Source: Flavobacteriaceae bacterium Ap0902 (GTDB lineage: Bacteria; Bacteroidota; Bacteroidia; Flavobacteriales; Weeksellaceae). Taken from it: a stretch of DNA of 64,000 nucleotides. Of the stretch, positions 6,585-18,848 are shown piece after piece. Numbering within the stretch: position 1 is the first letter of the stretch; each line of letters opens with the position of its first letter. The position numbers and the translations under genes are program-made. The stretch lies in NCBI GenBank assembly GCA_009835005.1, contig WTFG01000001.1, forward strand, positions 124,001-188,000, written 5' to 3'. The notes below the pieces were generated by a model that ran no database searches, had not been told where the DNA came from, and worked only from the letters and a program-made list of their open reading frames with translations.

Positions 6585-7589
6585 TTAGGTTAATTGTTTA
6601 AAAATTAATGTTCTCAAGACCACATTCAATGTCAAGAAAAATAAGGCATAGAGCAAGATACTCCTAAAATACTCATCATAGGTGTAATATTTAATCTCAT
6701 TAATTTCTGATTTTTCTAATTGATTAATTTCATTATATATCTCTTGTAGTTTGTCATTATCTGTGGCTCTAAAGTATAGCCCATTGGCTTTGCCTGCTAT
6801 ATATTCTAGCATGTTTTCATCTAATTGGAAAAGTCTTTGAGGATAATGTTCATAACCACGTGGCAGCGGTATAAATCCTGTGGTACCAATCCCAATCGTA
6901 TAGACTTTGATGTCCTTATCCGCTGCGATTTGTGCTGCATCCTCTGGGCTTATATAAACCATATTTTTACCATAATCCACGGGACTTTCCCCTCCATCTG
7001 TAATTAAAATTACAACCTTACTCTTGGCTTTAGAATGTTCTAAATGATTGATAGCCGTGGCTAATCCAATCCCTATGGCCGTACCTGGTTCTAATTGGTC
7101 TGTCTTTAGGTTCCTAATGGAATTTACCATGACGCCTCTATCTGTGGTTAAAGGCACGCTGGTAACAGCTTCTCCAGAATATACTACAAGACCAATCCTA
7201 TCTGATTTTCTATTAATCACAAAGTTCTCTGCCACCTTTTGCAAAGCTGCTAATCTATCTGGCTTTAAATCTCTGGCAAGCATACTCAATGATACATCTA
7301 CCACCATCATAATATCTACCCCTTCATCTGATTTAACCGCCGTGCTCACATTGACTTTCCGTGGTCTTGCCATGGCTATAATCAATAGAGAGAGAACCAA
7401 TATGTTTAAAAAATTAAGCAAAGGTTTAATCCATTTATAAAAACCTTCTTCCTCTCCAAAAGCTTTGATAGAAGGGGATTTCATGGGATTAATCGTTTGG
7501 TTCTTAAAGGCCAAACGCCAGAACAATATTACTGGAATCAGGAATAAAAGAAGTAAAAACCAAGGATTTTCAAATTCAAAATTGCTCAT
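6585..7589 (-). CDS. batA: BatA, VWA-domain membrane protein
   Basis: 334 residues with N-terminal membrane helices (about 10-26 and 58-75), a VWA domain with the full metal site DVSLSMLARD, GTAIGIGLA and ITDGGESP, and a C-terminal helix ending in LNVVLRTLIF. It is paralogous to its downstream neighbour batB, which is the usual tandem arrangement in Bacteroidota. Its ATG overlaps the stop of the preceding gene as TAATG at 7589, which suggests coupled translation. Confidence 0.9.
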   Translation of the reverse strand: MSNFEFENPWFLLLLFLIPVILFWRLAFKNQTINPMKSPSIKAFGEEEGFYKWIKPLLNFLNILVLSLLIIAMARPRKVNVSTAVKSDEGVDIMMVVDVSLSMLARDLKPDRLAALQKVAENFVINRKSDRIGLVVYSGEAVTSVPLTTDRGVMVNSIRNLKTDQLEPGTAIGIGLATAINHLEHSKAKSKVVILITDGGESPVDYGKNMVYISPEDAAQIAADKDIKVYTIGIGTTGFIPLPRGYEHYPQRLFQLDENMLEYIAGKANGLYFRATDNDKLQEIYNEINQLEKSEINEIKYYTYDEYFRSILLYALFFLTLNVVLRTLIFKQLT

Positions 7590-8605
7590 TAACTTCTATC
7601 TATTTTTCTGATTTTTTCTGAATCATCTATGCTTGGAATATGGTCTGGCAAAGTTTCATCCAAAACAGGCCTTGTTCTATTAATAATCTCTTCTATCCAT
7701 GCTCTATAATGCGCATGTTTCTCTGCAGAGGGTACTTGTCTTGCATATTTAGTGAAGTCTGCATCTTTTAAAAATTTAGAAAATTCCACAGATTCCTCTG
7801 CCGTCAAATAATCCTTTTGTCGCATGACCTCTGCTAAATCTGAACTTAATAAAGCCATAGCCGGGAAATCAAATCTCCGTTGAAAATATCTTCTAATAAT
7901 AAAACTCAAATCAGAATAAAATTCATAATATTTCTCCTTATCAACATATTGCTCTTTGTCTAGTTTATCCAAATTATCCAGTGCCTCTTCATAGGGTGGT
8001 AATAGGGGCGTACTTATATATTTCTGTCTTTTCTTTTCTCTATAATATAGCCATATAATCAATAGGATAATTAAAATAAAGAGAACCCCTGCTACGATAT
8101 AATAAATATATTGTTTATTGCGTTCCCACCAGGTAATATCCTGTTCCATAATGGGTTTGATAGAAAATAATCCTTGTTGATTCTCATCTACTTCTACATC
8201 TTGGATACTCAAAGTAAAGGGTTTGCTCAAATATGTTTCACCATCTATCGTGATAGGCAATCCTTTGATTAAAAATTCTCCAGGTTCAAAACCCGTAAGC
8301 GTAATATTTTGGATAATGTTTAAGTTTCTACCTCTTTGTAGGCTATCCATTTTTACTGCAGAAACTTCTATATAATGTGATAGAGAATCAGATAATTGGG
8401 GCATTTCCACTACCCTATCGCTATCCACTGTAACGGTGATATTCAGCGCGGCGGTATCACCAATCATAATCCTTTCTGGATTTAATTCTGTATAGATTTG
8501 TGCAGAAGACGAAATCACCCAGAAACACAGCCATAAACCTAGAACTTTTTTAAAATTTAAAAGTTGAATGCCATACGTGCTAATGTTAAATGATTTATGC
8601 TGCAT
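7589..8605 (-). CDS. Bat-operon membrane protein, BatD-like
   Basis: 338 residues with an N-terminal hydrophobic segment (about 20-36, ending in SSSAQ), an extracytoplasmic beta-sandwich region of about 120 residues (PERIMIGDTAALNITVTVDSD), a strong membrane helix near residues 165-188 and a cytoplasmic helical C-terminus. The layout resembles a short BatD or the DUF4381-type proteins that sit between the DUF58 and VWA genes in MoxR operons. It starts 11 bp inside the DUF58 gene and ends in overlap with batA. I infer a structural role in the same membrane complex. Confidence 0.65.
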   Translation of the reverse strand: MQHKSFNISTYGIQLLNFKKVLGLWLCFWVISSSAQIYTELNPERIMIGDTAALNITVTVDSDRVVEMPQLSDSLSHYIEVSAVKMDSLQRGRNLNIIQNITLTGFEPGEFLIKGLPITIDGETYLSKPFTLSIQDVEVDENQQGLFSIKPIMEQDITWWERNKQYIYYIVAGVLFILIILLIIWLYYREKKRQKYISTPLLPPYEEALDNLDKLDKEQYVDKEKYYEFYSDLSFIIRRYFQRRFDFPAMALLSSDLAEVMRQKDYLTAEESVEFSKFLKDADFTKYARQVPSAEKHAHYRAWIEEIINRTRPVLDETLPDHIPSIDDSEKIRKIDRS

Positions 8606-9461
8606 GATGACTTCTAAAATAATTCAATAATGCTTTTATATAGTCATCATCTGTTCTGATTTCTATCGTGCCTGCTCCCGCTTTAGAAAAATTCTCTAAA
8701 AATTGATTATGAACTTTTCTATAATAATTTTCATAATACTTTCTCACTTTTGGGGATGCCGTGTTAATCATTCTCATCTCTCCTGTCTCATTATCTATCA
8801 CATTCACCAAGCCAATATTGGGTAAAAATTGTTCTTTTTCATCATATACCCTAATACCTGTAACATCGTGTTTGTTCGCGGCTATCTGTATAGATTTCTG
8901 GTAATTAGAATCTGTGAAATCAGATAAGATAAAGGTGATTACTTTTCTTTTTTGGGTTCTCAACATAAAATCAATAGCGGTGCTTAAATCGGTTTTGGAA
9001 TGTTTGGGTTCATATTCCACCAATTCTCTAATGATTCTAAGCACATGGAACCTCCCTTTGCCTGGTGGCAGATATAATTCTACCTCATCAGAGAATAGAA
9101 TCAGCCCTACTTTATCATTGTTGGCAATAGAAGAAAATGCCAACGTAGCACATATCTCTGCTACCGTTTGTCTTTTGGATTGTTTGCGGGTTCCAAAGTT
9201 TTGAGAAGCACTAATATCCACCAAAAGCATTAAAGTTAATTCTCTTTCCTCCTCAAAAACCTTCACATAAGGCTCATTAAACTGAGCTGTCTTATTCCAA
9301 TCAATATTTCGTACATCATCCCCAAATTGGTAAGGTCGCACCTCAGAAAAAGTCATCCCTCTACCTTGAAAAGAACTATGATATTCACCCATAAAAAGAC
9401 TATTGGTCTTTCGCTTGGTTTTAATCTCTATCTGGCGTACTTTTTTAAGGATTTCCTTCAT
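8595..9461 (-). CDS. DUF58 family protein (MoxR-associated)
   Basis: 288 residues of the DUF58 family, soluble and VWA-like. The diagnostic block is present: FSEVRPYQFGDDVRNIDWNK (about residues 38-57), then ELTLMLLVDISASQNFG with the remnant metal site DISAS. Members are nearly always encoded beside MoxR ATPases and VWA proteins, as here, and are thought to be substrates or adaptors of MoxR. In this genome a four-helix-bundle gene separates it from moxR, and the ATG at 9461 follows directly on an array of 7-bp repeats (9462-9510). Confidence 0.9.
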   Translation of the reverse strand: MKEILKKVRQIEIKTKRKTNSLFMGEYHSSFQGRGMTFSEVRPYQFGDDVRNIDWNKTAQFNEPYVKVFEEERELTLMLLVDISASQNFGTRKQSKRQTVAEICATLAFSSIANNDKVGLILFSDEVELYLPPGKGRFHVLRIIRELVEYEPKHSKTDLSTAIDFMLRTQKRKVITFILSDFTDSNYQKSIQIAANKHDVTGIRVYDEKEQFLPNIGLVNVIDNETGEMRMINTASPKVRKYYENYYRKVHNQFLENFSKAGAGTIEIRTDDDYIKALLNYFRSHHAA

Positions 9462-9510
9462 TATTGGTTTATGGTGATTAGTGTTTGGTTTAATGGTTTA
9501 TGGTTTAAAG
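9462..9510 (-). repeat. Heptamer array between the four-helix-bundle gene and DUF58
   Basis: On the - strand this reads as TAAACCA, TAAACCA, TTAAACCA, AACACTA, ATCACCA, TAAACCA in phase with a 7-bp period, ending at the DUF58 start codon. The similar period on the other side of the inserted gene (9874-9920) suggests the two tracts are related to how the gene came to lie here. Confidence 0.65.
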
Positions 9511-9873
9511 ATTGTCTTGGTTACTTTTTTTGAGGTTACTTAGCATTTTTGCAATGATTAATGATTCATCTTTTACTTTTGTCAGCTCCTTCTCATTCAC
9601 AAACTTGAATTCAAACGATATAATAGCCTGATTGACCAGTTCCATCAAACTACTATAAGCCATGGTATAAAAATGGTTCTTGTCTTTAGAGGTTTGTCTA
9701 GCCGATCCTTCTGCAATGTTAGAAGACACAAATAGTGCACATCTTCTCATTTGGCTAATTAAATTATATTTTTCTTCTGTTGGATAGTTGTTAGTAAGTT
9801 TAAAAATAAAACAGTATAAATCTTTACTTCTCTGCCAAACATCAAGCTTTTCAAAATTAAATATGATACCCAT
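9505..9873 (-). CDS. Four-helix-bundle protein (S23/IVP family)
   Basis: 122 residues. Family marks are FEKLDVWQRSKDLYCFIF (about 6-23), the central EKYNLISQMRRCALFVSSNIAEGSAR with the diagnostic NIAEG, and a C-terminal helix pair. The family was first found encoded in intervening sequences of 23S rRNA but is common as free-standing genes in Bacteroidota; its function is not established. Here it interrupts the moxR-DUF58 pair, which are normally adjacent, and is bracketed by heptamer repeats on both sides. This looks like an acquired gene. It is on the same strand as the operon, so read-through is possible. Confidence 0.85.
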   Translation of the reverse strand: MGIIFNFEKLDVWQRSKDLYCFIFKLTNNYPTEEKYNLISQMRRCALFVSSNIAEGSARQTSKDKNHFYTMAYSSLMELVNQAIISFEFKFVNEKELTKVKDESLIIAKMLSNLKKSNQDNL

Positions 9874-9920
9874 AAACTGCTATCTAATAACTATATACTA
9901 TAAACTCTCAACCTTAAACT
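9874..9920 (-). repeat. Heptamer array upstream of the four-helix-bundle gene
   Basis: On the - strand the sequence before the ATG reads AGTTTAT, AGTATAT, AGTTATT, AGATAGC, AGTTT-ATG in strict 7-bp phase. It lies between moxR and the four-helix-bundle gene. Confidence 0.6.
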
Positions 9921-11636: not shown

Positions 11637-14279
11637 TTAAAAAGAAAAAGCTATGCCTGCTAAGAACTGTCTTGGACGTAAATTAAAATTAGATTCTATC
11701 ATCTGATAATCATTGATGATAAGATTGCGGTAATTTTGGGTGTTTAAAACATTGTTTAATCTAAATTTTAAATCTACTTTATATTTCTCTATTGTGTAGT
11801 TATAAACAAAATCTAAGAAATAAAAATCTTCTTTTTGTGTATTAACTTCATTGATTATCCACTGGTTCTTTATCGCCAGGTATTGATTATCTGTTGGATA
11901 TAAGAAAAAATTAAAATGATGCTCTAATTGATTAAAGGAAAATGTTGTATTTAAGTATTCATTGGTATAATTAGATATATTTAACTTATAATCTATATGA
12001 AACCAATCGGTGATATCTTGTTCTAATTTAGCGCCATACCCAATTAATTCGTTATCAGATTGTATGAAAGCACCGTTTAAAACACGCTCTGATGTTCCAA
12101 AATTATAGGAACCTAAAAGTGATACATTGGTACTTGTTTCCCCAATATATTTACTGATTTTAGTAGCAATTTGGTGATTTTGGCTTTGATTATCTCTTTC
12201 TATCGCCAACAAGGTTGCAGAACCATCTGCGCTGACGTCTGTCTGATATAATAAATTCTTATCTGTTTGGCTATAACCATAAGTGAGGTGTGCAAAAAAC
12301 GATTTGAGTGGATTTTTATAATATAAGCCACCATTCACGTTAAAGCGATTGTCTTCTGGTATAATGCCATTTACTTTTTGCAAACTGCGATAGTTGTGCA
12401 ACATATAACTTTGGTATATATTGTCAATGCCTCCTATGGCTTGTTTATAGCCCGTTGCTATGGTATAACGCCAATAAGCAGATGGCTCATAAGTGAGGCT
12501 AAAACGGGGTTGTATTGTTAGAAAGTTCTTGTCTAGTGTGGTATTAGATTGTTTATAATCTATATTAAACCAATGATAATGCACTGGTAAAGACAGATTT
12601 CCTTTAAACTTTTGATTTTTATAATTGATTTTTAATTCGGTATAGATTTTATTTCTATTCCAAACCATTTCATTTTGGAATACTGCATTTGTGATTAAAT
12701 TCTTATCTGTATATATTTCTGAATCTAATTGTTGATAATCTAATGTAAAACCTATTTTTGGGATAAAAGTAAATTTCTTGAAGCCTTTGGTGATTTGAAA
12801 GGAATTATCTGTAATTAGTTTATTATGATTCACTTTTTGCAAAACCTCACCATAGGGGTTTCCATTATTTAATAAAGTTTCAAAAACGCCTGGCAACACT
12901 TTTAACTCCTGTGGTGCATGGAAGTAGGCAGAACTAGAATGAAAGGAAATTAATTGTTTACCTACAGGAAATACCGCATTTAATTTGTTGGCTACCTTAA
13001 AATGCTTATCACTCAAATCTTGTTTGATTGCTTCTGTATTACGCTCTAAAATACCGTCTGCTGCACTCCATTGAGATTGAATATTCAATTTATTTTTTAA
13101 ATATGTCTTTTTGTTGTTTTTTTCTAAAATAATATCAGCATTCAGGCGGTTGTCTATATTTCTATTCTGGGTGTTTTCTTCTAATAGGATATCTCCCGCT
13201 GGCGTATAAAAAATGCTATTGGTTTCACTGGATAAAGTCTGATAATCGTTGAGGTAAGACAAATTAACTTTGAGTTGATAAGCCTTATTTAATTTTTCTA
13301 AAATATTAAGCGATAGTAGATGAATATTGTTGTCTAGCCATCGGCTTTCGTCTATCATCGGGGTAGCCGGTGATAAAACATTCACCCATTGATTAGGCTC
13401 TGCATTCACACTTGGGTTAAATAAATCATCTATGGTAAGCGCATTTAATTGCCTTGTGATATCGTCTCCAATATTATTGGATTGGTAACTCCCAAGAAAT
13501 TGACGTTTCCCAGTGAATAGCATCGGCGTAACATTGGCCTCCCATAACAATGGACTAGCTCCAGCGGCCAATTCTGCGCTTCCTGTCATCGTTACAGCGT
13601 TTTTGAGTTTAATGTTGATGGCCGCACTTTCAGAATAAACCAAACTGTCTAAAATCTTAATCGGTTGATGATTTTCTAACACCTGAACTTTGGCTACTTT
13701 ATCATAATGCAGGTTATCGTTGGCCAGATTATATTTACCCTCTAGCAAGTCTAAGTTTTCTATATAATACTTATTGATTGGTTTTCCTTGATATAGAATT
13801 TGACCATTTTCTTGCACCTCCATGCCTGGCATTTTACTAATCACATCGCCAATAGAGCGATCTTGTTCACTAGCAAAAGCCTTTACCGCATAATTGAGCG
13901 TATCTCCTTTTTGGGTTATGGGAGAAGATTTTACGACAATTGCCTTTAATTCTATCGTTTCTGATGATAAATAATAAGTTAAATCCTGACTTTTATTTTC
14001 TATCACTTCCTTTACCGGTCCATAGCCCATAGAACGGATATTCAATTGTAATTGAAGCGCATCACTTTCAACCGTTATAGCAAAATTACCCTTACTATCG
14101 GTAATGGCATAAGACAGGATCTGGTCTGTATTCTCTATTGTAATGGTAACACTCGCCCCAGAAATCGCTTTATCCCCATTCTCCGAATAAACGGTGCCTT
14201 GAATGGTGGATTGGGCTTGTAAAAAGGATAAGGAAGAAAGAAATAAAATCAATATAGATTTATAGGATTTTGAGAACAT
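11637..14279 (-). CDS. TonB-dependent-receptor-like outer membrane protein next to GLPGLI genes
   Basis: 880 residues: signal peptide (about 1-22, ending LQAQ), a carboxypeptidase-regulatory-like beta domain (about 24-105, GTVYSENGDKAISGASVTI), a plug-like region with DVISKMPGMEVQENGQILY and KYYIENLDLLEGKYN, then a long beta-barrel with many aromatic alternating strands ending in FLAGIAFSF, the typical C-terminal Phe of outer-membrane barrels. I see no TonB box. It is the last gene of the GLPGLI array, 28 bp after the nearest GLPGLI gene, and probably exports, imports or binds the product of that array. Cargo is unknown. Confidence 0.82.
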   Translation of the reverse strand: MFSKSYKSILILFLSSLSFLQAQSTIQGTVYSENGDKAISGASVTITIENTDQILSYAITDSKGNFAITVESDALQLQLNIRSMGYGPVKEVIENKSQDLTYYLSSETIELKAIVVKSSPITQKGDTLNYAVKAFASEQDRSIGDVISKMPGMEVQENGQILYQGKPINKYYIENLDLLEGKYNLANDNLHYDKVAKVQVLENHQPIKILDSLVYSESAAINIKLKNAVTMTGSAELAAGASPLLWEANVTPMLFTGKRQFLGSYQSNNIGDDITRQLNALTIDDLFNPSVNAEPNQWVNVLSPATPMIDESRWLDNNIHLLSLNILEKLNKAYQLKVNLSYLNDYQTLSSETNSIFYTPAGDILLEENTQNRNIDNRLNADIILEKNNKKTYLKNKLNIQSQWSAADGILERNTEAIKQDLSDKHFKVANKLNAVFPVGKQLISFHSSSAYFHAPQELKVLPGVFETLLNNGNPYGEVLQKVNHNKLITDNSFQITKGFKKFTFIPKIGFTLDYQQLDSEIYTDKNLITNAVFQNEMVWNRNKIYTELKINYKNQKFKGNLSLPVHYHWFNIDYKQSNTTLDKNFLTIQPRFSLTYEPSAYWRYTIATGYKQAIGGIDNIYQSYMLHNYRSLQKVNGIIPEDNRFNVNGGLYYKNPLKSFFAHLTYGYSQTDKNLLYQTDVSADGSATLLAIERDNQSQNHQIATKISKYIGETSTNVSLLGSYNFGTSERVLNGAFIQSDNELIGYGAKLEQDITDWFHIDYKLNISNYTNEYLNTTFSFNQLEHHFNFFLYPTDNQYLAIKNQWIINEVNTQKEDFYFLDFVYNYTIEKYKVDLKFRLNNVLNTQNYRNLIINDYQMIESNFNLRPRQFLAGIAFSF

Positions 14280-14306
14280 ATATTAAAAAAATGATTGATT
14301 TTAAAT

Positions 14307-15161
14307 TTATCTTTTAATCCAAATCATATCCTTTTCTATTGGATTATCATGGTTTAATATCCACTCTTTTACCTTTTCATCCATACTATCCATTATATCT
14401 TTTTGACTAATTGTTTTACCATTAAAACTTATCGATGCCATGGGTCCACCATTTTCTATGCGATTTTGCATTGCAAGCGAAGGTTTTTTGAGCAACTTCT
14501 TTTTGTAAGTTATTAAAGCATTTCTTTTGATTTCGGTAGATTTGGGTAACACTATTTCTTCCTCTGTTTGTGTAAAACTTTTAGCTACAAAACTATAGGC
14601 ATTATCTGCAGAACTAACTTCTAATATGAGCCCTGGTAAACCTTCAAATTTGTATGGCCCGTCCGATATAGGAATATCATGGCTAAACCAAGCAACCCAT
14701 TCTCTATCACCTAATGTAGTAATTGCTTTTTGAGTTTTGTAACCTAGGATATCTTTGGTTTCTGCTTTGATTTTCCAAGATAAGTCTTCTGAATAAGAAT
14801 AGGAATAGGTATCGCCTAAAATTTTTTCATAAAACAAATTAGAATCTTTTGTTGTTTGTTTATAAAAAGCAAAGTTAAATCCATAATCTGGTGCTTCTAT
14901 AACTTGTGAATAATCTAAGGTTCCTGCTTTTACTTGATCATTATATTTTTTATAATAAGCCTTAATTTTTTCTTCACCTAAATTCTGAAAATAAGAAACT
15001 TGATGGGTATAATCTATAAGTAATTTTACCTCTTCTGATACCTCTTTATCACTATTCAACTTAGGTTGATATTCTAAATTATATATTACCTGGTACTGCT
15101 GTGCAGAAATCAAAGTAGTAAATAATAAAATCCCTAAGGTTATATATCTTCTTATTCCCAT
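14307..15161 (-). CDS. GLPGLI family exported protein 1
   Basis: 284 residues with a signal peptide ending LISAQ (about residue 20) and the family's name-giving motif in GPYKFEGLPGLILEV (about residues 170-184), preceded by the usual WVAWFSHDIPI strand. GLPGLI proteins (TIGR01200) are confined to Bacteroidota and have no known function; they are exported and often encoded beside TonB-dependent-receptor-like proteins, as here. The start overlaps the end of the neighbouring GLPGLI gene by 10 bp, so the two are co-transcribed. Confidence 0.9.
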   Translation of the reverse strand: MGIRRYITLGILLFTTLISAQQYQVIYNLEYQPKLNSDKEVSEEVKLLIDYTHQVSYFQNLGEEKIKAYYKKYNDQVKAGTLDYSQVIEAPDYGFNFAFYKQTTKDSNLFYEKILGDTYSYSYSEDLSWKIKAETKDILGYKTQKAITTLGDREWVAWFSHDIPISDGPYKFEGLPGLILEVSSADNAYSFVAKSFTQTEEEIVLPKSTEIKRNALITYKKKLLKKPSLAMQNRIENGGPMASISFNGKTISQKDIMDSMDEKVKEWILNHDNPIEKDMIWIKR

Positions 15162-15868
15162 TCAAAAGCAATTTCTAAATTGGTTCTTTTTTGTTCTGTC
15201 ATAGTATTGTTGGGGTTTTGTGCCAACATTTTTTTCAACTCTTCTGATAATCCATAAGCCTTTTCTGGATAAAGGGTATAGGGAAGAAATTCTGTTTCCT
15301 CGCCAAAAGGACTTACAACTATATCATCTGTTTTCTCTAAACTCTCTAAAACCCATTTGGCGTTTCCATCTGTAGAATAAGCCTCATAAACAATCCCTGG
15401 AATTCCTACAAACTTCCATAAGGGTAGAGATATATCCCCTTTTTCATACCATAGAACATAGGTTCTACCTCTAAAGGTGGTGGTAGCGATATTAAAAATC
15501 TTACCATTAACTTCTTTGGTTTCATTGGAAAACTGATATTGAATTTTGGGAATTTTTTCTTTAAAAGAATATTCTTTGCCTATTTTATCATGGATATAAA
15601 AAATACCATTTTGTACAAATAATTTATACTCAAAATTATAGTCGTTAAACTTTGTAAAATAACCTTCTGCTTGTTTAGGATCAATGCTTAAATCTACTTT
15701 AGTTGTATATAAAGTTCCATTTTGGTCTTTCACTACTTTGGCATTAAATACACGAGGTTCTGATAATGTCATGTATTCTTTAGAAAATGTATAATTTGCT
15801 TGTAAGGTTTCTTGACCTTCTAATGAAAATGATAAAAAGACTATAAGAAATAAGACTTTTGTTTTCAT
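15152..15868 (-). CDS. GLPGLI family exported protein 2 (divergent motif)
   Basis: 238 residues with a clear signal peptide (MKTKVLFLIVFLSFS, cleavage near EGQ). The family core is recognisable but altered: LPLWKFVGIPGIVYEAYS replaces the usual GPYKFxGLPGLI. The strand before it, TYVLWYEKGDI, also matches the family. It is the most divergent of the four GLPGLI proteins in this array. It overlaps the next GLPGLI gene by 10 bp and lies about 70 bp downstream of a small exported-peptide gene. Confidence 0.82.
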   Translation of the reverse strand: MKTKVLFLIVFLSFSLEGQETLQANYTFSKEYMTLSEPRVFNAKVVKDQNGTLYTTKVDLSIDPKQAEGYFTKFNDYNFEYKLFVQNGIFYIHDKIGKEYSFKEKIPKIQYQFSNETKEVNGKIFNIATTTFRGRTYVLWYEKGDISLPLWKFVGIPGIVYEAYSTDGNAKWVLESLEKTDDIVVSPFGEETEFLPYTLYPEKAYGLSEELKKMLAQNPNNTMTEQKRTNLEIAFEWE

Positions 15869-15938
15869 ATGTGTATAAAATTTTAAAAATCGCTCATAAA
15901 ATAATATAAACGACTAGTATAAACAATTGGAGAAATTT

Positions 15939-16208
15939 TTAATCACATGATGCCGAAGCAAGCATTGCATATCCTCTTCCTCTACATTCTCCCTCACTAT
16001 TTGCAGGTGCATATGAATAGCCAACAAGTCTATCCCCACAATAAATTCTAATCTCACACCAACCACCAACTAAATCGTATTGCTGATAGATATACTCCGT
16101 TTCATTATTAGCATTTTCATTGACTTTGTCAAAATTAGTTACTTCTCCTGTAGAAGCAAAAGTTAAAGTCCCGATGAGCATTACTGCTCCAAATAATAAT
16201 TTTTTTAT
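15939..16208 (-). CDS. Small exported Cys-containing peptide A, apparent AUA start
   Basis: No known family. The first ATG (16181) would give 80 residues beginning MLIGTLTFASTGEV, with only a stub of a signal peptide. Nine codons further upstream in the same frame an ATA (16206-16208) gives IKKLLFGAVMLIGTLTFA, a textbook signal peptide with lysines and a TFA cleavage site; a TAA stop lies two codons before it, so no ATG is available. The mature part (about 70 residues) has four cysteines (WCEIRIYCG, GECRGRG, SASCD). Peptide B at 17234-17463 has the same leader codons but an unrelated mature part. The coordinates given assume the AUA start. Confidence 0.6.
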   Translation of the reverse strand: MKKLLFGAVMLIGTLTFASTGEVTNFDKVNENANNETEYIYQQYDLVGGWCEIRIYCGDRLVGYSYAPANSEGECRGRGYAMLASASCD

Positions 16209-16236
16209 GTTTTATATTTTTTTAGTTAAACATACC

Positions 16237-16244
16237 CAAACTTA
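16237..16244 (-). promoter_or_regulatory. Putative -7 box of peptide gene A
   Basis: TAAGTTTG on the - strand matches TAnnTTTG and lies about 30 bp before the AUA codon. The identical box and surroundings occur before peptide gene B, which supports function. Confidence 0.5.
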
Positions 16245-16369
16245 ATAATTAATAATTAATAATAGAAATTTTTATTTATTAAATTATATAAATACTTATT
16301 AATTATTATTTTTTTAATTATTTAAATTATTATTTAAGCATACTATAATTTAATAGAATATTACGCGAA

Positions 16370-17173
16370 CTAGTTTAGTTCTATAGCGATATTCTCGCTA
16401 TTTACGTTCTTTTTCACTCTTCTATGGTGTTTTTCGTCTATTCTATCTAATAATTCTTGTGGATTACTCTTAAAATTAGATTTAATAAGAATAAAATCTT
16501 TCCTTTTTACCTCATTTAAAACATGGGTCGAATTTCTTAATACATTTTCAACATCAATTGTATGTCCTATATTTAGTAATTCAAAATCAAAAAGATTATC
16601 AACATCATGCAATTTTATAATTAAACCTGGTAGACCAGCAAATTTATAAGGACCATCGGGAATCGGAATTTCTTCTGCATAATAAGCAATCCATTTTCTT
16701 CCTTTAAAATCTATTGTGGCTTTACGTGCTTTAATCCCGTTAATAGAGTCTATTTCATTAGTAACTATCCAATTATTAGGAAGATTTTCTGTATAAATAT
16801 AATTTTCTTTATACACTTTTTCGTTATGAGATAATTGTCCTTTTATAGGATAATTCTTTGCAATTTTATAATTTATTTTAGTACGGTAATTTGCTAAATT
16901 AATATTATTTAAAAGCGACCCAGGCATTAAATTATCTTCATTTTTCTTTGCTTCTAAAAGCAAAGAATCTAAACGGCTAGCACCTAAACTAGTGAAAGTA
17001 GATATAGAATCTCCTACTTTTAAAATCATGGTTTCTGAACGCTCTTTATCCAAATCTAAACTATCATACTTATAAGTGTATTGGTAAGTGATTTCATATT
17101 GATACTCAAATGCACTATTTTCTTGACCCGACAAGCAAATAGAAAATAATATAAATAATAAATTAAATCTCAT
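16370..17173 (-). CDS. GLPGLI family exported protein 3
   Basis: From the ATG at 17173, which gives the signal peptide MRFNLLFILFSICLSGQE, it encodes 267 residues; the frame stays open upstream to 17212 but without a sensible start. The family core is intact: WIAYYAEEIPI followed by GPYKFAGLPGLIIKLHD. The C-terminus ends in IAIELN, as does GLPGLI protein 4 (NAIELN), and the DNA following both genes is nearly identical, which shows that gene plus peptide was duplicated as a unit. Confidence 0.88.
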   Translation of the reverse strand: MRFNLLFILFSICLSGQENSAFEYQYEITYQYTYKYDSLDLDKERSETMILKVGDSISTFTSLGASRLDSLLLEAKKNEDNLMPGSLLNNINLANYRTKINYKIAKNYPIKGQLSHNEKVYKENYIYTENLPNNWIVTNEIDSINGIKARKATIDFKGRKWIAYYAEEIPIPDGPYKFAGLPGLIIKLHDVDNLFDFELLNIGHTIDVENVLRNSTHVLNEVKRKDFILIKSNFKSNPQELLDRIDEKHHRRVKKNVNSENIAIELN

Positions 17174-17233
17174 ACAATTAATAGATTTAAAAATACCTTG
17201 TTCTATTGACAAGGTTTTTTAATTAACATTAAA

Positions 17234-17463
17234 TTAACCACAAAAATATTGATCACCAGCTACGGCATCTTCGAGTCTTTCTTGTTCTGTTGCTCCACAA
17301 GCCATGCCATCTAAACCGCATGTGTATTCGAACATCACACATTCCTCTTCTGCTTTATCAGCTTTAAGATCCTTGCTTTCTTTTTGGTTTTCTTTTACTT
17401 CTCCTGTAGAAGCAAAAGTTAAAGTCCCGATAAGCATTACTGCTCCAAATAATAATTTTTTTA
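17234..17463 (-). CDS. Small exported Cys-containing peptide B, apparent AUA start
   Basis: Sister of peptide A. The first ATG (17437) would give 67 residues, but the same in-frame ATA-AAA-AAA-TTA-TTA leader (17461-17463 for the ATA) precedes it, with an upstream TAA in the same place, giving the leader IKKLLFGAVMLIGTLTFA. The mature region of about 59 residues is acidic and carries four cysteines (EECVMFEYTCG, GMACG, QYFCG), with no visible similarity to peptide A beyond STGEV at the cleavage site. It lies between two GLPGLI genes. Function is unknown. Confidence 0.6.
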
Positions 17464-17492
17464 TGTTTTATATTTTTTTAGTTAAACATACC

Positions 17493-17500
17493 CAAACTTA
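17493..17500 (-). promoter_or_regulatory. Putative -7 box of peptide gene B
   Basis: TAAGTTTG on the - strand, in a segment that is almost base-for-base the same as the region before peptide gene A. Confidence 0.5.
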
Positions 17501-17629
17501 ATAATTAATAATACAAATTTTTATTTATTTAATTACATAAATACTTATTAATTATTATTATTATAACTATTTAAATTACTATTTAAACATAATACAATTT
17601 AATAAAATATAGATTTATTCAACCTTGGG

Positions 17630-18442
17630 TTAGTTTAGTTCTATTGCGTTATTTCTCTGCTTTTTGCCTTGTTTTTTTAATTTTTTTAAGTCTCCAGCGT
17701 CAATATCTATGGTTATGCCTAGCTGTTCTAAAGATTTTAATGGATTTTCTTCAAAATTGCCTTTAACCTTTTTAAATTCTTCTAATGTTACTTTATTCGC
17801 ATCCAAGGGAATTTCATTCATGGTTTTATCTGTGACTTTAGAGAAGCGTTGCAATGTATAATCATAGTGGTTTTTATCATCTGTGATTTTCACAATTAAT
17901 CCAGGTAAACCATAAAACTTGTACGGTCCTTCTGGAATAGGTATTTCTGAAGTAAACCACGCTGTCCACTGTCTTCCGCCATACTGTAATGTCGCTTTTT
18001 GACTTTTAAAACCTAAAACTTCTTTTTGCTCTTCTTGGATTTCCCATTTAAAGTCACTAAAAGGTTGATTATATACGTAATGGGTCTTTAAAACTTTTTC
18101 TAGGACACTAATATTTTTATCCAAATAATTCTTGTAAATCTTCTCTTTAAAATAAAATTTTGGTAATCTATCTTTCTGAGTCAATAAACTCATTTTTTCT
18201 TCCATGCTTTGCAAAGAATTAAGAATAGAATCCCTGATTAAATGATTTTCACTTAAAAACATAGATCCAGTATCCCCTAATTGTAAGAGCATCATTTCTG
18301 ATTTTTGGCTATTGACATCTGCAGAATCTTGTTGAAAAGTCAATAAATATCTTGCTTGGTATTTTATTGCTTGTTGAGCATTTATCGTGCTAATAGCAAT
18401 GAAAAATGTGAATAGAAAACTTATATTCAATTTATATTTCAT
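17630..18442 (-). CDS. GLPGLI family exported protein 4
   Basis: 270 residues with a signal peptide ending ISTINAQ (about residue 22) and an intact family core: QWTAWFTSEIPI followed by GPYKFYGLPGLIVKITD (about residues 167-183). Its Lys-rich C-terminus ends NAIELN. It is the first gene of the leftward array (GLPGLI 4, peptide B, GLPGLI 3, peptide A, GLPGLI 2, GLPGLI 1, outer membrane barrel protein). The 150 bp between it and the divergent lipoprotein gene must hold its promoter; I see no convincing -7 box. Confidence 0.9.
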   Translation of the reverse strand: MKYKLNISFLFTFFIAISTINAQQAIKYQARYLLTFQQDSADVNSQKSEMMLLQLGDTGSMFLSENHLIRDSILNSLQSMEEKMSLLTQKDRLPKFYFKEKIYKNYLDKNISVLEKVLKTHYVYNQPFSDFKWEIQEEQKEVLGFKSQKATLQYGGRQWTAWFTSEIPIPEGPYKFYGLPGLIVKITDDKNHYDYTLQRFSKVTDKTMNEIPLDANKVTLEEFKKVKGNFEENPLKSLEQLGITIDIDAGDLKKLKKQGKKQRNNAIELN

Positions 18443-18593: not shown

Positions 18594-18848
18594 ATGAAAT
18601 ATTTAATTGTTTTATCTTTAACTTTATTGGCTTTAACTTCTTGTAAAACAGGTTGGAGCGTAGAGGAACAACAACAATATATTAATGATTGTATGGCGAT
18701 GGCTGGTAGTGTAGAAAATGCAGAAGCTATTTGTGATTGTGGGCTACAACAAGCCATGGATAGATATGAAACCAAAGAAGAAGCAGAAAAGGCTGTACAA
18801 GCCATGACAGAAGAAGAGTTACAAGCACTCTTTGCAGAATGTATGTAA
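18594..18848 (+). CDS. Small lipoprotein with Cys pair
   Basis: 84 residues. The N-terminus MKYLIVLSLTLLALTSC is a lipoprotein signal with a lipobox (LTSC, Cys 17). The short mature part contains NDCMAMAG, the pair in AICDCGLQQAMDRY and a final Cys (FAECM), with helical, acidic surroundings. Similar small lipoproteins with a CNC/CDC-type motif are common in Bacteroidota, but I know of no function. It reads away from the GLPGLI array, followed 56 bp later by the OsmC-family gene. Confidence 0.75.
   Translation: MKYLIVLSLTLLALTSCKTGWSVEEQQQYINDCMAMAGSVENAEAICDCGLQQAMDRYETKEEAEKAVQAMTEEELQALFAECM

Follow-up and report, generated by a model that had tools for sequence, protein, structure and literature searches.

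A 64,000-nucleotide stretch of the Flavobacteriaceae bacterium Ap0902 genome (contig WTFG01000001.1; hereafter the window) carries, at positions 11637-18442 of its minus strand, an array of four GLPGLI proteins, two small exported Cys-containing peptides and a TonB-receptor-like protein. This content, given in a preliminary description made from the sequence alone, was confirmed by the open reading frames (ORFs) and by TIGR01200 and Pfam matches, while the alternation of GLPGLI and peptide genes that it had noted turned out not to be strict. Transcription runs through GLPGLI-1, peptide-2, GLPGLI-2, peptide-1, GLPGLI-3, GLPGLI-4 and the receptor, i.e., one GLPGLI gene is followed by a peptide+GLPGLI unit, a peptide+GLPGLI+GLPGLI unit and finally the receptor gene. 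All four GLPGLI proteins score above the curated TIGR01200 cut-off of 50 bits: GLPGLI-1 (17630-18442; 270 amino acids; 190 bits), GLPGLI-2 (16370-17173; 267 amino acids from the ATG at 17173, the listed ORF starting from a TTG at 17212; 158 bits), GLPGLI-3 (15152-15868; 238 amino acids; 54 bits), which is a short divergent member with the motif GIPGIV, and GLPGLI-4 (14307-15161; 284 amino acids; 155 bits), which overlaps GLPGLI-3 by 10 bp. The source genome contains ten TIGR01200 matches in total. GLPGLI-3 and GLPGLI-4 have relatives in locus L050 (42-46% identity to 5509/7816 and 43-45% to 6171/8599, respectively), and there too the GLPGLI-3 counterpart lies 3' of a type B peptide. The receptor (11637-14279; 880 amino acids) closes the array. 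The flanking genes look ordinary (GNAT and OsmC by Pfam; BatD/DUF58/MoxR-like by reading). A small Cys-containing lipoprotein-like gene adjoins both arrays (18594-18848 in the window; 1521-1769 in L050).

Both window peptides naturally start upstream of the ATG proposed by a simple ORF caller, at (I/M)KKLLFGAVMLIGTLTFASTGEV, where each copy has ATA, with an in-frame TAA two codons 5' of it. The start position was placed by reading frame and relatives, and signal peptides were assigned by a simple hydropathy rule together with conservation rather than on the basis of SignalP. A hydrophobic Sec-type leader of about 20 amino acids, ending in ..TFAST, precedes a mature part with four Cys in each peptide. 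Peptide-2 (17234-17464; 76 codons) comprises this leader, a pro-region and the type A four-Cys core EECVMFEYTCGLDGMACGATEQERLEDAVAGDQYFCG; peptide-1 (15939-16208; 89 codons) joins the same leader to an unrelated type B mature part, GGWCEIRIYCGDRLVGYSYAPANSEGECRGRGYAMLASASCD. The common portion belongs to a duplication of upstream and leader DNA, with copy 1 at 17396-17516 (leader 17464-17396; TAAGTTTG at 17500-17493) and copy 2 at 16140-16260 (leader 16208-16140; TAAGTTTG at 16244-16237), the outer boundaries being approximate. The two leaders share 68 of 69 bases and the DNA directly upstream shows no difference at all, but identity falls to 49% in the mature DNA, at the level of shuffled sequence (47%). 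The same contrast occurs within L050, L059, L110, L118 and L119 (leader DNA identity 0.70-0.95; mature parts mostly near the shuffle level). In L059, the GLPGLI proteins behind the two peptides are 77% identical although the peptides differ in type. Leaders are thus conserved, whereas the mature parts have been exchanged or have diverged extremely.

Across Bacteroidota, the dominant type A core reads C-V-x-V-T-L-S-C-G-x2-G-x2-C-G-x-T-...-C (alignments A3/A4). Type B peptides (WCEIRIY...) occur in the window and in L050, and a two-Cys SCG type in L059, genome G150 and a Prevotella plasmid. Exactly four Cys follow the leader in 42 out of 57 peptides, and the mature peptides are acidic, with a mean net charge of -5.6. 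No family was matched when the window peptides and seven relatives were scanned against Pfam and NCBIfam. In two arrays, peptides are broken by in-frame stops (L119 1484 and L110 ~7450), which suggests birth-and-death turnover. Thioredoxin-like proteins, possibly serving the peptide cysteines, are encoded within or beside two GLPGLI clusters (L076 9116-10255; L057 9224-9787). A parallel peptide-plus-partner array was seen in L176 (9600-14886), where each of three small exported Cys peptides is followed by a protein of 361-379 amino acids; the leaders of two of the peptides are nearly identical, and both of the partners scanned are 6-bladed beta-propellers (DUF5128).

We then considered how generally such peptides accompany GLPGLI genes. 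A GLPGLI search yielded 73 named loci (74 with the window) from many Bacteroidota genera and some metagenome-assembled genomes labelled Chlorobiota. A peptide was counted as paired if its ORF was small, encoded a signal sequence and two or more Cys (usually four) and ended at most 200 bp upstream. Such a peptide lies 5' of 46% (47/103) of the run-leading GLPGLI genes, compared to 1.7% (10/573) of other genes (Fisher p 1e-33, a value that overstates independence because the loci are related and were picked by similarity to the window GLPGLI) and none of the 49 GLPGLI genes placed immediately behind another GLPGLI. A reverse search started from the peptide. A first contig scan with the peptide alone as query gave no match, and a leader-containing profile (A3) was replaced by a Cys-core profile (A4) because of its many leader-only matches; the search with A4 covered 395 genomes at the level of the phylum and 396 at that of the order. 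In 12 out of 12 genomes with a full-length peptide-profile match (the window's genome excluded, and G245, matched by A3 only, included), a GLPGLI ORF follows directly downstream on the same strand, about ten of these genomes being independent since G044 is part of the profile and the L275 peptide is identical to profile member L108. One further genome (G260) has a weak A4 match (23 bits) with an internal stop and no GLPGLI, which was taken as chance. Small exported peptides thus do stand beside GLPGLI genes elsewhere, contrary to the outcome by which the preliminary description had proposed to reject its idea, and the pairing is real, widespread and specific, far beyond chance. Tandem small ORFs of 102-114 amino acids, about 370 bp apart, were also observed in genus g35 (G052, G225, G229, G261, G300, G370 and others); they match only the leader portion of the peptide profile.

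The partners also co-vary. Peptide and GLPGLI distances are correlated (Mantel r 0.60, p 5e-4, n = 41), and a partial correlation persists given receptor distance (r 0.40, p 5e-4, n = 24). Moreover, the set can be compact and mobile. Two Prevotella corporis plasmids, 7.9 and 12.3 kb in size, encode a GLPGLI protein together with a 61-amino-acid peptide (ending VTTSCGKVAYIDTDRTTVENTMEQVMDIDRVLCGN) and an 860-amino-acid receptor. On the smaller plasmid these lie in line, and beyond them the annotation lists only genes for replicating and mobilising the plasmid, a YoeB-type addiction pair and two small ORFs without a name; its GLPGLI gene spans the record start, is absent from the gene table and was read from the sequence, where it is collinear with the larger plasmid. 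A plasmid search with one chromosomal four-Cys peptide gave no match. The three-gene order peptide-GLPGLI-receptor recurs in Flammeovirga (L289) and in genome G022 (L051). Many Bacteroidota carry a small movable set of a putatively secreted Cys peptide, a GLPGLI protein and an outer-membrane transporter.

A terminator-like hairpin separates peptide and GLPGLI in 30 out of 52 gaps, compared to 0/17 GLPGLI-receptor gaps, 3/19 GLPGLI-GLPGLI gaps and 28/99 other same-strand gaps. In the window it is present 3' of peptide-2 (AAAACCTTGT..ACAAGGTATTTTT; 17184-17218, minus strand, between peptide-2 and GLPGLI-2) and not of peptide-1. A hairpin at this place is as expected if the peptide outnumbers its carrier. 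A shared promoter was considered and dropped, as no enrichment of the Bacteroidota -7 box TAnnTTTG was seen in front of peptide genes (12/54 vs 9.9 expected). Two distant loci have ABC transporter genes directly 5' of GLPGLI (L050 10371-11618; L288 3055-5193).

The AlphaFold2 model of GLPGLI-1 (predicted local distance difference test score, pLDDT, of 93) is closest to the N-terminal bowl domain of PNGF-II (Z 15.7), followed at Z 7-9 by half-barrels of VioE, LolA, an ependymin-related protein and RseB/MucB. These latter matches are weak singly but mutually consistent, and GLPGLI is accordingly predicted to be a LolA/RseB-type half-barrel, although a shared fold does not show a shared function. 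Known members of this fold include carriers and peptide sensors of the periplasm, such as LolA and RseB. At the sequence level, a Pfam scan of GLPGLI returned Porph_ging and PNGase_F-II_N only and no LolA/RseB family, so the sequence match extends only to the PNGF-II N-terminal domain, to which no function has been assigned (PMC9522356). At the C-terminus, the tail NNPIEL shows almost no variation. A first GLPGLI alignment (A1) was too diverse for profile scanning. The receptor model (pLDDT 88.8) comprises an N-terminal domain, a plug and a barrel of about 22 strands, as in TonB-dependent transporters, with FhuE, FhuA, FecA and BtuB as top PDB matches in Foldseek. Its N-terminal extension is of the CarboxypepD_reg type found in Oar (PF13715, 38.8 bits; PF13620, 32.7 bits). 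Pfam Plug/TonB_dep_Rec profiles gave no Plug match for the window receptor and a weak one in 2 out of 40 relatives (the receptor alignment A8 leaves out two A7 members, a GH2 enzyme and a doubtful Chryseobacterium protein). From the model and this extension, we predict an Oar-like TonB-dependent transporter. In Myxococcus, PopC secretion requires Oar (PMC6434023), which shares the CarboxypepD_reg domain, plug and ~22-strand barrel; it differs in that its cargo is a protease and no GLPGLI is involved, whereas here cargo and direction are putative and the Plug hidden Markov model barely scores.

The gene pairing, the leader/mature modularity, the co-variation, the hairpin and the mobility of the compact set can be read from the sequences, and together with the fold models and the Oar architecture they favour the following scheme. 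A small, acidic peptide of the disulfide type would be exported by its Sec leader, in excess of its carrier. Periplasmic GLPGLI would bind the peptide of its own unit and carry it in a LolA/RseB-like half-barrel, handing it over to a single TonB-dependent, Oar-type outer-membrane barrel that all units would share and through which the carried peptide would most probably exit the cell or else be displayed. Purifying selection on the Chryseobacterium peptide orthologues is in line with this scheme. That GLPGLI is a periplasmic carrier of its cognate peptide, working with a shared Oar-like transporter and probably outward, is the reading that we favour, albeit tentatively and short of calling it probable; the direction of the traffic (export, uptake or immunity) is inferred. 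The complete picture of a mobile three-part system, with leader-constant, mature-variable disulfide peptides, dedicated half-barrel carriers and export through a shared TonB-powered barrel, is possible but more doubtful.

Several observations weigh against the carrier reading. TonB transporters normally import. In an evenly drawn genome sample, a peptide lies 5' of only 6 out of 54 GLPGLI genes, while most of these loci have a gene of receptor size next in line (genomes G150 and G021 are exceptions). GLPGLI and receptor thus form the core and the peptide is a frequent addition, i.e., peptide pairing is a specialisation of this core, and since the receptor adjoins GLPGLI with or without a peptide, it need not be peptide-specific. 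The earlier proposal that GLPGLI proteins act on, carry or are paired with specific peptides consequently holds as far as pairing, co-variation and the predicted carrier-like fold reach, yet not for GLPGLI in general. Two Psychroflexus species have DNA-identical GLPGLI genes and mostly identical receptor genes, although their mature peptides are 41% identical; strict one-to-one recognition is therefore not required. Divergence of the GLPGLI helical lid does not track peptide divergence over 30 pairs (rho 0.19, p 0.32), and the lid, suggestive as a specificity region in L059 and in L110 against L119, was dropped as a candidate. Finally, the start codon of both window peptide genes is ATA (17464 and 16208) where relatives have ATG, which makes peptide expression in this genome uncertain and may point to decay or weak translation of the system. 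As a separate observation on Psychroflexus, GLPGLI and most of the receptor (L071 9447-12350 vs L079) are identical between differing flanks and peptides, which indicates a recombination tract.

Other GLPGLI loci of the source genome bear on its state and on a possible toxin role. A third candidate peptide, FMCSVTLIVGSGTATGYDHGDTLEAACHAATDNAM, lies 5' of GLPGLI 9125-9913 (L056, G000:C2) with its leader out of frame with the mature part. In L055 (G000:C12), a fourth small exported ORF lies 5' of GLPGLI and lacks Cys. Between this locus's GLPGLI gene and its receptor (6884-8294), an SdpB-like and a single-transmembrane protein are encoded, recalling the SDP toxin pathway; the SdpB-like protein matches TIGR04033 below cut-off (E 2.8e-9). 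SdpB was rejected as a component of the system, being linked to one GLPGLI locus only, with GLPGLI in 0 out of 19 other SdpB loci examined.

That link is one of the arguments for regarding the peptide as an antibacterial toxin, the downstream GLPGLI as a sequestering periplasmic immunity protein and the TonB barrel as exporter or guarded uptake receptor. Close one-to-one pairing of the genes, arrays built from duplicated units, constant leaders before swapped mature parts and carriage on a very small plasmid that also has an addiction module would all suit a bacteriocin, and peptide-less GLPGLI genes could be orphan immunity genes. In size and number of Cys, the peptides resemble bacteroidetocins, operon-encoded Bacteroidota peptides of ~40 amino acids with four Cys, a 15-amino-acid GG leader and a peptidase-ABC exporter (PMC6671954). 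The window system differs in its Sec-type leader, GLPGLI and TonB barrel: its peptides lack the ~15-amino-acid leader ending in GG, and no peptidase ABC exporter gene is present in its array, L050 alone having an ABC ATPase and membrane protein, in its last unit. The acidity of the peptides, the single, sub-threshold SdpB case outside the window array, the many GLPGLI-receptor pairs without peptide, and the purifying rather than diversifying selection on Chryseobacterium peptide orthologues weigh against this explanation, which we consider rather unlikely.

If instead the released peptide scavenged a metal or small molecule and returned loaded through the transporter to GLPGLI as the receiving periplasmic binding protein, the importer-like receptor fold, the acidic, Cys-rich peptide and the constant GLPGLI-receptor core would be accounted for. 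The units, however, contain no conserved export route for a free peptide and no conserved inner-membrane uptake genes, and mature types that share little beyond two to four Cys would be odd for one ligand, so uptake seems improbable. A peptide retained in the periplasm could also regulate the complex of GLPGLI and receptor or else an envelope-stress response, with GLPGLI as an RseB-like sensor. RseB/MucB is among the fold matches, and PhoP of Riemerella anatipestifer is reported to regulate several GLPGLI genes (PMC9603813). A Parabacteroides GLPGLI-receptor pair adjoins a divergent sensor kinase/regulator pair, but this two-component locus carries no peptide, and multiplication of units and swapping of mature parts are unlike a fixed signal; we consider such signalling quite improbable. 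That the small exported genes stand near GLPGLI by chance or shared neighbourhood, without functional link, agrees with the majority of GLPGLI genes having no peptide, yet it is contradicted by the two-way enrichment, the co-variation and the minimal plasmid and is highly improbable.

GLPGLI (TIGR01200; Porph_ging, PF09697) is a large Bacteroidota family for which, to our knowledge, no function has been established. The four window proteins are typical in that tandem copies are common. They are distinguished by the paired exported peptides, of which no description was found within the open-access papers searched, subscription literature and preprints lying outside the search. Papers there that use the term GLPGLI deal with PhoP regulation in Riemerella and, going by their titles, with capsule regulation and the re-annotation of genomes. 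The exported Cys peptide is therefore the first candidate partner for the family, and a co-varying adjacent peptide provides GLPGLI with its first directly testable functional hypothesis, together with a ready three-gene construct. If true, the carrier reading would mean that a major phylum of gut, oral and environmental bacteria produces a new class of secreted peptides. It would also provide a second example of a TonB transporter that works outward and give GLPGLI its first function.

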